Source of the DNA: Williamwhitmania sp.
GTDB lineage: Bacteria > Bacteroidota > Bacteroidia > Bacteroidales > Williamwhitmaniaceae
Length of the DNA: 57,297 nucleotides
Reading direction: 5' to 3'
Assembly: GCA_035529935.1 (NCBI GenBank)
Contig: DATKVT010000021.1
Location: forward strand, 1 to 57,297
A program made the position numbers and the translations under genes. Under the pieces are notes generated by a model, which ran no database searches, was not told the DNA's origin, and saw only the letters and a program-made list of their open reading frames with translations. Positions 4,702 to 21,869 of this stretch are shown piece by piece (positions within the stretch are counted from its first letter, which is position 1; each line of letters opens with the position of its first letter).

Positions 4702-4732
4702 TTTGGTCTTACCCATTTTAGGGGTAATTTGG
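4702..4732 (+). promoter_or_regulatory. Promoter of the acyl-cassette operon (copy 1 of a duplicated promoter/leader)
   Basis: TTTG at 4702-4705, a 19-base spacer, then TAATTTGG at 4725-4732 (one mismatch to TAnnTTTG). The spacing, and the position against the conserved leader that begins at 4733, are identical to the promoter at 11,699-11,729. This supports both as real. Confidence 0.6.
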
Positions 4733-4787
4733 TCTGCCATATTTTATGCAGTCTTTTGTGGGACTGAGAGGGCGAAGCTGTATCAAA
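4733..4787 (+). repeat. Conserved leader element, copy 1
   Basis: These 55 bases match 11,730-11,784 at 51 positions. They hold an inverted repeat CTGC...GCAG (4734-4751), an alternative overlapping hairpin CAGTC...GACTG (4749-4766), and an invariant GGCGAAGCTGTATCAAA block from 4771. Each copy begins right after a promoter -7 box and lies 75-90 bases before the first gene of a long operon. The rest of the leader (4788-4875) shows nothing further to me. A role as an operator or as a recruitment site for an antitermination factor is inference. Confidence 0.8.
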
Positions 4788-4875: not shown

Positions 4876-6402
4876 ATGCAGAAGAATCTAATTGAATATT
4901 TTGATAGGGTTCAAAAACTCCATCCTAATAGAGCTGCGGTTATTGAGGGAGATAAGAGCATTTCATTTTCACAGCTAGGCCAAGATTCTAAAAATGTTGC
5001 CAATAGAATTATCGTAGCGGTTGAGCAAGTGCTAAACAAACCGGTTGCAGTTTTTTTACCAAAAGGCATCGAAAGCGTTGTGGCCGATTTGGCCATTACA
5101 TATAGTGGGAATGTTTACATGAACCTGGATGTAAAATCGCCTCAGCTGCGCATTGAGAACATTCTCAACCTGATTCAACCGGTATTAATACTTACCAATA
5201 ACGCAAATCGAGAGAGGTTAAGCGGCATTTCCTATAAATGCACTATTCTTTGCATCGACGACATTGAAGCTTCCAGCAGTGGGGACGAATTGATTTATCG
5301 GAGGCTCGAAGCGCATATCGATACTGACCCATACTGCATAATAAACACCTCTGGATCCACCGGAACGCCCAAAGGGGTTGTGCTAAACCATAGGAGCTTT
5401 ATTGACTTTACCGAATGGGCTATTGATACGTTGCATATTAAAGATAATGAGATAGTTGGTTCTCTTTCGCCAATTGTGTTTGATATTTATAGCTTTGAGC
5501 TATGCATGTTGATGGCCAAGGGAAGCACTCTTGTAGTTTTGCCCGATTCGTTGGCCGCATTTCCTGCCAAGTTATTGAGCATAATGCAAGAACAAAAGGT
5601 TACCTTCATTTTTTGGGTGCCAACCATTATGGTGAACATTGCCAATATGGACTTGCTGTCGAAAATTGCTTTACCCGTTCTAAAAACTGTTTGGTTTGCT
5701 GGTGAGGTTTTCCCCACCAAGCAGTTTAACCAATGGAAGCAGCAGTTGCCCAGCACCAAGTTTGTAAACCTGTATGGCCCCATCGAAATTACGCTCGATT
5801 GCACCTACTATGTTGTGGAGAGAGAGCTAAAGGACAATGAACCTATCCCCATTGGGTTTCCTTGCAAGAATAGTGATGTCCTCATCCTAAATGAGTCGAA
5901 CCAACGTGTGGCTATTGGTGAAGAGGGAGAGCTATGTGTGCGTGGCTCCTCTTTGGCAATGGGATATTACAACAATCCCGTGAAAACAGCAGAGGCTTTT
6001 GTGCAGAATCCTTTGAATTCGTCCTATCCCGAAATTATCTATCGAACGGGAGATATTGTTTCAATTAATGAGCGTGGCGAAATTGAATTCAAGGGTCGAA
6101 AGGATAGCCTCATAAAACACATGGGATATCGAATTGAATTGGGTGAAATTGAGCATGTTATAATTAATACGTTGAAGTTGGTGGAGAATGGATGTGTGGT
6201 TTACAACTTTAGCAAGAAGGAGATCACCCTATTTTTCGAAGCCAAAGGGGAGATATCTCTTGCGGAATTGAAATCAAAAATTGCGACCGTTTTTCCAAAA
6301 TACATGATACCAACTGTATACATGCGGCTAGAAGAGATGCCACGCAATATTAATGGCAAAATCGACCGACTTTTCTTAAATAACTCCATCAATAATGGAT
6401 AG
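4876..6402 (+). CDS. Stand-alone AMP-forming adenylation enzyme (NRPS A-domain / DltA-like)
   Basis: A 508-residue member of the ANL superfamily, near the length of DltA. The ATP-binding motif TSGSTGTPKGVV is at 158-169. The motifs YRTGD and FKGRKDSLIKHMGYRIELGEIE (the hinge region) follow, and the C-terminal catalytic lysine sits in NGKIDR. Such enzymes activate a carboxylic or amino acid as the acyl-AMP and load it on the phosphopantetheine arm of a carrier protein; the two ACPs encoded downstream are the obvious acceptors. I cannot read the substrate from the sequence. The stop overlaps the start of the GNAT gene by 8 bases. Confidence 0.85.
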   Translation: MQKNLIEYFDRVQKLHPNRAAVIEGDKSISFSQLGQDSKNVANRIIVAVEQVLNKPVAVFLPKGIESVVADLAITYSGNVYMNLDVKSPQLRIENILNLIQPVLILTNNANRERLSGISYKCTILCIDDIEASSSGDELIYRRLEAHIDTDPYCIINTSGSTGTPKGVVLNHRSFIDFTEWAIDTLHIKDNEIVGSLSPIVFDIYSFELCMLMAKGSTLVVLPDSLAAFPAKLLSIMQEQKVTFIFWVPTIMVNIANMDLLSKIALPVLKTVWFAGEVFPTKQFNQWKQQLPSTKFVNLYGPIEITLDCTYYVVERELKDNEPIPIGFPCKNSDVLILNESNQRVAIGEEGELCVRGSSLAMGYYNNPVKTAEAFVQNPLNSSYPEIIYRTGDIVSINERGEIEFKGRKDSLIKHMGYRIELGEIEHVIINTLKLVENGCVVYNFSKKEITLFFEAKGEISLAELKSKIATVFPKYMIPTVYMRLEEMPRNINGKIDRLFLNNSINNG

Positions 6403-11698: not shown

Positions 11699-11729
11699 TT
11701 TGATCTTTTCTTTATTAGAATTACTTTTG
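11699..11729 (+). promoter_or_regulatory. Promoter of the wbpP-rml-wzx operon (copy 2 of the duplicated promoter/leader)
   Basis: TTTG at 11,699-11,702, a 19-base spacer, then a perfect TACTTTTG at 11,722-11,729. It is the best match to the Bacteroidota consensus in the window and has exactly the spacing of the promoter at 4702-4732. Confidence 0.75.
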
Positions 11730-11784
11730 TCTGCCTTATTTCAAGCAGTCTTTTGTGGGACTGAGAAGGCGAAGCTGTATCAAA
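11730..11784 (+). repeat. Conserved leader element, copy 2
   Basis: This matches 4733-4787 at 51 of 55 positions. The inverted repeat CTGC...GCAG is at 11,731-11,748, the alternative hairpin CAGTC...GACTG at 11,746-11,763, and the invariant GGCGAAGCTG block at 11,768-11,777. A further TATTTTTG (11,795-11,802) lies between this element and the gene and could be a second -7 box, but no -33 partner is seen. Confidence 0.8.
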
Positions 11785-11860
11785 TAGGATGAGCTATTTT
11801 TGTACCAATATAGGTATCAGCAATATCCGTCTTTAGTTAAATAAGATTCTATTGTTTTCA

Positions 11861-12856
11861 ATGCTTTATCCAACTTTAACAAATAGGAGTATTCTTGTAA
11901 CCGGCGGAGCAGGGTTTATTGGCTCTAACCTCTGTGAGGAGCTGCTTCGTCAAGGGAATAGAGTGACCTGCTTGGATAATTTCTCCACCGGTAAGCAAGT
12001 TAACATTGCTTCATTTCTAGAGAACCCAAATTTTGTGCTCATAAACGGTGATATTCGTAATTATGAAGATTGCCAAAGAGCTGTTGCTGGTGTTGACCTT
12101 GTTTTTCATGAGGCAGCCCTTGGGAGCGTTCCACGCTCGATAAATGATCCGATAACGACCACGGACGTAAACATAGGCGGATTTGTAAAGATGCTTTTTG
12201 CGGCTAAGGAGCAGGGTGTGAAGCGTTTCATCTATGCTGCGAGCTCATCTACTTATGGCGATCATCCCGCCTTGCCAAAGGTGGAAGAGCATATAGGGAA
12301 GCCACTTTCGCCCTATGCCATTACCAAGTATGTAAACGAGCTGTATGCCGAAAATTTTGGCAAGCTATATGGAATAGAGACCATTGGTTTAAGATATTTC
12401 AATGTTTTTGGGAAGCGGCAGGACCCCGATGGCGCCTATGCAGCCGTTATTCCAAAGTTTGTAAAAATGCTAATCGAGCATGAGCAACCAATAATCAATG
12501 GGGATGGAAATCATTCACGCGATTTTACCCATATCGAAAATGTGGTTCTAATGAATTTACTCGCTGCGACTACACAAACTAAAGCGGCAGTAAATCAGGT
12601 TTTTAACGCTGCCTGTGGTGAAAGGAATACGCTTAACCAGCTTGTTACCTATCTTAAGGAGTTTTTAGGTGAGTACGATTCCGAAATCAAGAGGATTGAA
12701 CCAGTATTTGGCAAAGAGCGGGAGGGAGATGTTCGACATTCGTTGGCTAGCATTGAAAAGGCCCAGAGGCTTTTGGGTTATAAGCCCATCCATCTGTTTA
12801 AGGAGGGGCTGAGTCTCTCAACTTCATGGTATTACCAATTGCTTGTCAATCAATAA
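11861..12856 (+). CDS. wbpP: UDP-N-acetylglucosamine 4-epimerase, WbpP/TviC/Gne type
   Basis: A 331-residue extended SDR epimerase with [11 protein letters not shown] at the N-terminus, the catalytic motif YAITK and a preceding SSSTYG. The stretches DNFSTG and [23 protein letters not shown] are typical of WbpP/TviC proteins, which interconvert UDP-GlcNAc and UDP-GalNAc (or the uronic acids). I start at the ATG at 11,861; an in-frame TTG nine bases earlier is a poorer candidate. The gene is first in an operon with a strong promoter. Confidence 0.85.
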
Positions 12857-21524: not shown

Positions 21525-21869
21525 ATGAAGAACGATCTCGAAGACCGGCTATTTGATTTTGCAATTAGATGTATTAAATATATTCGTAATTTACCTGATA
21601 CAACTGAATACAAGGTGATAAAGTACCAATTATCTAAGAGTTGTACTTCATCAGGAGCTAATTACGAAGAAGCCCAAGCTGGTTCTTCAAAAGCAGATTT
21701 TAACAATAAGATTCGTATCTCATTACGTGAAATGAGAGAATCAAATTATTGGTTAAGAATTATTAAAGGTATTTCAGTTGAAGTTTCTGAAGAGTTGAAC
21801 TGGTTAATCAAAGAATCGACTGAACTAAAACTTATCCTTGGCTCGATCTGTCAAAAAACTAGAGCATAA
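21525..21869 (+). CDS. Four-helix-bundle protein (23S rRNA intervening-sequence family)
   Basis: A 114-residue protein of the S23/four-helix-bundle family. LEDRLFDFAIRCIKYIRNLP, the central SGANYEEAQAGSSKADF and the C-terminal LIKESTELKLILGSI are the family's conserved helices. Members are often encoded in rRNA intervening sequences or, in Bacteroidota, as isolated genes inside polysaccharide loci. Their function is unknown; relatives of the Avd accessory protein bind nucleic acid. Here the gene sits between capF and capG, which are normally adjacent, with AT- and purine-rich flanks, and may be a hitch-hiker. Confidence 0.85.
   Translation: MKNDLEDRLFDFAIRCIKYIRNLPDTTEYKVIKYQLSKSCTSSGANYEEAQAGSSKADFNNKIRISLREMRESNYWLRIIKGISVEVSEELNWLIKESTELKLILGSICQKTRA

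Follow-up and report, generated by a model that had tools for sequence, protein, structure and literature searches.

The analysed window, a stretch of 57,297 nucleotides from a Williamwhitmania genome, contains a polysaccharide gene cluster in which two similar leaders precede different genes on the forward strand. Leader copy 1 (4734–4782, read directly as CTGCCATATTTTATGCAGTCTTTTGTGGGACTGAGAGGGCGAAGCTGTA) lies before a gene for an AMP-binding enzyme of the acyl/amino-acid ligase type (4876–6402), and copy 2 (11731–11779, read directly as CTGCCTTATTTCAAGCAGTCTTTTGTGGGACTGAGAAGGCGAAGCTGTA) before a gene for a nucleotide-sugar epimerase (11852–12856) that is closest to TviC-type UDP-GlcNAcA C4-epimerases, at a score below the family cut-off. 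Both leaders are parts of a duplication of promoter and leader that spans 91 bp with 82% identity, so their agreement partly reflects common ancestry. Each is preceded by a putative Bacteroidota promoter: in copy 1 (4702–4732, forward strand) a -33-like TTTG (4702–4705) is followed by a 19-bp spacer and a weak -7-like box, TAATTTGG (4725–4732), and in copy 2 (11699–11729, forward strand) a TTTG (11699–11702) is followed by a spacer of the same length and TACTTTTG (11722–11729). The -7 box is a perfect TAnnTTTG in copy 2 and degenerate in copy 1. This arrangement of TTTG, spacer and TAnnTTTG-like box corresponds to the known promoter type of Bacteroidota; no sigma-70-type promoter was found. 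The genes between 4876 and 11644, named from their translations by eye except for family matches to AMP-binding and KSIII, comprise the AMP-binding enzyme, a GNAT-like protein, a FabH-like ketoacyl synthase (below the family cut-off), two short-chain dehydrogenases, an MBL-fold-like hydrolase and a NeuD-like acyltransferase, a set that suggests an acyl-modification side pathway. A small open reading frame at 21526–21869 of the same cluster resembles, by eye, a four-helix-bundle protein of the 23S rRNA intervening-sequence type.

Both leaders contain the same 25-bp sequence, ATGKGACTGAVRDGGCGAAGCTGTR, at 4758–4782 and 11755–11779 of the forward strand, with a GCGAAGC core at 4772–4778 and 11769–11775, respectively. 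When relatives were searched with the leader, three matches all fell on the hairpin-adjacent segment 4754–4786, and a fourth, weak match covered the promoter side without the element. Within the order, 70 of 393 genomes contain the pattern GGGACTGANNNGGCGAAGCTG, and within the phylum 38 of 395 contain a somewhat extended version of it; the reversed control pattern occurred in no genome of either set. We gathered 206 distinct copies, nearly all from Bacteroidota, with the consensus A T G K G A C T G A V R D G G C G A A G C T G T R. The element is sharply delimited, and its flanks show no conservation. Positions within the search pattern are partly fixed by how the copies were selected, and the core GGCGAAGC of the 206 copies was itself favoured by the search; direct reading shows the same core in both window copies. 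Free of this constraint are the T at position -1 (96%), the R at +22 (93%) and the spacer bases that are excluded. Named genomes among the matches listed are those of Algoriphagus, Echinicola, Cyclobacterium, Pedobacter, Lacihabitans, Marinifilum and Prolixibacteraceae besides many Bacteroidales MAGs, and a few element-bearing MAGs among these matches are labelled as other phyla. Viral contigs contained no exact match to the consensus. Of 17 papers matching the element string, none of the 15 listed concerned Bacteroidota leaders by title, and the longer string GACTGACGGGGCGAAGC was absent from those 15.

Across the collected copies, TAnnTTTG is enriched 25–100 bp before the element (56 occurrences on the same strand versus 8 on the opposite strand), and the next gene lies on the element's strand in 178 of 185 copies at a median distance of 116 bp. 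Polysaccharide export genes make up 9 of 80 first genes, among which nucleotide-sugar dehydrogenases, epimerases and glycosyltransferases recur; PF05635, the family of the 23S rRNA intervening-sequence type resembled by the small open reading frame of the cluster, is the first gene in four of the 80 loci. The Williamwhitmania genome carries three copies in total, two in the window and a third before a Polysacc_synt_2 gene on contig C2. Two genomes have several copies each, three to seven in number, whose upstream arms are alike, and many copies lie near contig ends, which suggests repeated or variable loci. Six loci additionally show a GAGTAA...TTACTC-like inverted repeat about 30–45 nt before the element, overlapping a promoter-like box.

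A gene that often accompanies the element encodes UpxY, an antitermination protein and NusG paralog. It is the immediate upstream gene in 12 of 58 loci, and a UpxY-like gene occurs in the examined flank of 43 loci; 43 of 44 such genes share the element's strand and most of them either end 37–250 bp before the element or are the first gene after it. Three MAGs that carry the labels Acidobacteriaceae, Omnitrophota and Tectomicrobia also have a gene next to the element that passes the UpxY cut-off; the labels of these contigs may be wrong. With presence by genome called at an E-value of about 1e-25, UpxY was found in 60 of 70 element-positive and in 170 of 323 element-negative genomes (p = 1e-7, uncorrected for kinship). 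A clear UpxY was missing in 10 of the 70 element-positive genomes, some of which are incomplete MAGs, and many UpxY-positive genomes carried no element at the stringency used. A tree of 61 UpxY proteins places the element-adjacent ones together with the Williamwhitmania UpxY in one supported group of poorly resolved inner branching. This group includes two of the 20 sampled gut-type sequences, which had been chosen as top scorers; the others fall outside, and no convincing element-like sequence was detected upstream of 18 gut-type upxY genes.

Williamwhitmania itself possesses a protein of this family, encoded at C76:1004–1534. It scores 155 bits against the UpxY model NF033644, above the cut-off of 100, and 69 bits against the RfaH model, below the cut-off of 144.5. 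A sequence search of the PDB with this protein gave no match. The genes beside it resemble Wza and Wzc by eye. While upxY adjoins the element in other genomes, it adjoins neither window element here; instead of being the first gene of an operon that it controls in the window, it lies on another contig, C76, and would hence act on the window operons in trans. That a signal spread through the phylum often stands beside a UpxY gene suggests that UpxY boards RNA polymerase at this site.

The original prediction had regarded the leader as an attenuator-like region with alternative folds. Much of its description holds: the two copies differ at four positions, of which one lies in the loop (4745/11742), and a possible A-T to T-A swap is present (4739 A and 4747 T in copy 1, 11736 T and 11744 A in copy 2); the fourth difference falls within the spacer of the 25-bp element. 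Hairpin 1 (CTGC...GCAG, 4734–4751, forward strand, -2.5 kcal/mol) and the second hairpin (CAGTC...GACTG, 4749–4766 and 11746–11763) indeed exclude each other because C-A-G is common to both, and leaders before biosynthetic operons are a usual location of attenuators. Against a switch between a terminating and a read-through fold stands the weakness of hairpin 1, which finds no support as a functional fold. The swapped pair, proposed as a compensatory sign of selection, sits beyond a bulged C and its addition destabilises the hairpin from -2.5 to -0.6 and from -2.7 to -0.7 kcal/mol in the two copies. Nothing similar is conserved across the wider set of copies, and the region upstream of the element on its own folds no better than shuffles (p = 0.83). 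As had been anticipated, the first arm of hairpin 1 is probably transcribed incompletely, given that 4734–4737 directly follows the -7 box (4725–4732) at or before the likely start. Moreover, copy 1 has no intrinsic terminator between element and gene, and neither the window nor ten related loci reached the gathering threshold of any Rfam family, leader families such as JUMPstart and epsC/EAR included; a permissive search produced a single chance match (RF02220, 17.5 bits versus a gathering score of 60). No pair of conserved structures that exclude each other, with a terminator as one of them, was found, and we consider an attenuator of this kind highly improbable. What the copies do conserve is the 25-bp element, fixed in form and linked to UpxY.

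Hairpin 2 fared differently. It reads CAGUCUU-UUGU-GGGACUG (4749–4766, forward strand), with the first half of the element as its 3' arm, and stem and loop are identical in copy 2 (11746–11763, forward strand). RNA folding picks this hairpin in both copies, extended to 7 bp at -8.0 kcal/mol; the whole 57-nt segment folds no better than shuffles (z of -0.1 and -0.8 for the two copies). In 195 non-redundant loci the upstream sequence pairs with the first half of the element at a mean of -3.0 kcal/mol versus -1.6 kcal/mol for shuffled sequences (z of about -10), and a decoy half of the element gave -1.2 kcal/mol. Swapping the base at +1 revealed that the upstream arms prefer their own G or T allele (gap of 1.38 versus 0.19 ± 0.25 kcal/mol for shuffles). 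Enrichment is 11-fold for helices that contain a single G-U pair (9 observed) and 2.7-fold for those with another single mismatch (8 observed), which indicates that hairpin 2 acts as RNA rather than as an inverted repeat in DNA. The wider comparison of leaders that had been called for therefore backs a selected fold, on the grounds of complementarity, of the covariation at +1 and of the preference for wobble pairs, but this fold is hairpin 2 and not hairpin 1. A strong uninterrupted hairpin occurs in a minority of loci, namely 28% versus 12% of shuffles at -4 kcal/mol and 15% versus 4% at -6 kcal/mol, so that hairpin 2 is not universal. Still, it is a real and conserved part of the 25-base signal. 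An outer stem around it, TGCC...GGCG, appears in the window folds and was dropped because GGC shows little excess pairing across loci.

A sharply bounded, conserved motif shortly after a promoter might also be an operator in double-stranded DNA, bound close to the transcription start by a conventional transcription factor. We regard this as very unlikely, since the motif is asymmetric and strictly oriented (178 of 185), follows the -7 box at a variable distance of about 25–100 bp and can be located between upxY and the gene after it, and since its arm covaries and tolerates wobble as expected for RNA. Of the DNA operator at +1 that had been suggested for the window, the part that stands is that the second half of the element resembles a DNA signal, one that would be read during transcription, about 20–40 nt into the transcript. 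Conversely, UpxY could recognise hairpin and element entirely as RNA, with the DNA half relevant only as RNA sequence. The support of hairpin 2 at the RNA level would agree with this, as would the binding of an RNA hairpin by LoaP (PMC12691694), but the most invariant block, GGCGAAGCTG, lies outside the hairpin without excess pairing and strong hairpins are confined to a minority of loci, which makes pure RNA recognition unlikely.

Instead of a two-state attenuator, the element is in our opinion probably a recruitment site for UpxY that combines a hairpin-assisted pause with a signal in the non-template DNA. The features follow one another as would suit a hairpin-stabilised pause combined with an ops-like signal: a promoter, an RNA hairpin ending about 12–13 nt before a T/G step, and GGCGAAGCTG after it. 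We infer that RNA polymerase would start at the Bacteroidota-type promoter about 20–40 nt upstream and transcribe the element, whereupon the nascent RNA could fold hairpin 2 (3' arm GGGACTG), the likely pause hairpin, just behind the enzyme. This hairpin would aid pausing while the GGCGAAGCTG half occupies the bubble, with the pause presumably positioned around the T of GGCGAAGCT/G. The non-template strand may then present GCGAAGC as a DNA mini-hairpin, similar to ops for RfaH; UpxY encoded on contig C76 would bind the paused complex and remain bound, allowing the polymerase to read through the long polysaccharide operons. GCGAAGC has been described as an extremely stable DNA mini-hairpin with a Tm of 78 °C (PMC4686876). 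Since this hairpin is not predicted with the DNA parameters of ViennaRNA, the mini-hairpin step rests on the published oligonucleotide measurements. At the ops pause, a hairpin in the non-template DNA recruits RfaH (PMC11001881), and UpxY proteins prevent premature termination in the capsule leaders of B. fragilis (PMC7819879). The computation itself shows the element, its orientation and operon context, its link to UpxY and the covariation of hairpin 2, from which pausing, UpxY binding, the mini-hairpin in the bubble and antitermination are inferred.

Among the closest parallels is the RfaH/ops (JUMPstart) system of Enterobacteria. There, too, long operons for polysaccharides have a short oriented element in their 5' leader, several operons share one NusG paralog that acts in trans, a non-template DNA hairpin is possible and the core is similar (ops GGCGGTAGCGTG versus GGCGAAGCTG). 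A stem-loop has also been reported among JUMPstart elements (RF01707; PMC2864571). The two are nevertheless not the same in sequence, as the element reads GGCGAAGC at its core and does not follow the ops consensus GGCGGTAGC; the partner here is UpxY (155 bits in the UpxY model) rather than RfaH, and the 3' arm of the RNA hairpin belongs to the conserved element. Capsule antitermination by UpxY in B. fragilis, the subject of work by Chatzidaki-Livanis in 2009 and by Saba et al. in 2024 (Nat Commun 15:10862), agrees with our case in protein family and type of operon. Each UpxY there serves its own locus, whereas the single UpxY of Williamwhitmania probably acts in trans on three operons via a common element. 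According to Saba et al. in 2024, UpxY reportedly recognises paused polymerase via exposed non-template and upstream DNA, aided by nascent RNA hairpins. LoaP of Bacillus velezensis is likewise a NusG paralog, and an RNA hairpin of the UNCG type assists its recruitment within the leaders of long operons (PMC12691694); it belongs to a different protein family and phylum, and in our element the strongest conservation lies outside the hairpin.

The element offers a concrete, searchable candidate loading site for UpxY-type antiterminators of environmental Bacteroidota. As such it would render regulons for capsule, exopolysaccharide and O-antigen predictable from sequence and provide, beside RfaH/ops, a second independent case of how a NusG paralog distinguishes its operons. 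With a wobble-tolerant covarying arm and a fixed DNA core, RNA-based pausing and DNA-based recognition should be directly separable by test. We further propose, tentatively and with slightly more doubt than confidence, that one signal of 25 nt undergoes two successive readings, at first in the nascent RNA, where it supplies the 3' arm of a pause hairpin, and later as a DNA mini-hairpin within the transcription bubble, and that it constitutes a nearly phylum-wide, ops-like code for a clade of UpxY that evolved separately from RfaH/ops and moved with the UpxY gene into other phyla. Finally, the element precedes genes of the phage integrase family at two loci, and contractile-tail families (Pvc16_N, phage sheath) match two of the 80 first genes, so that its use may extend beyond polysaccharide operons.
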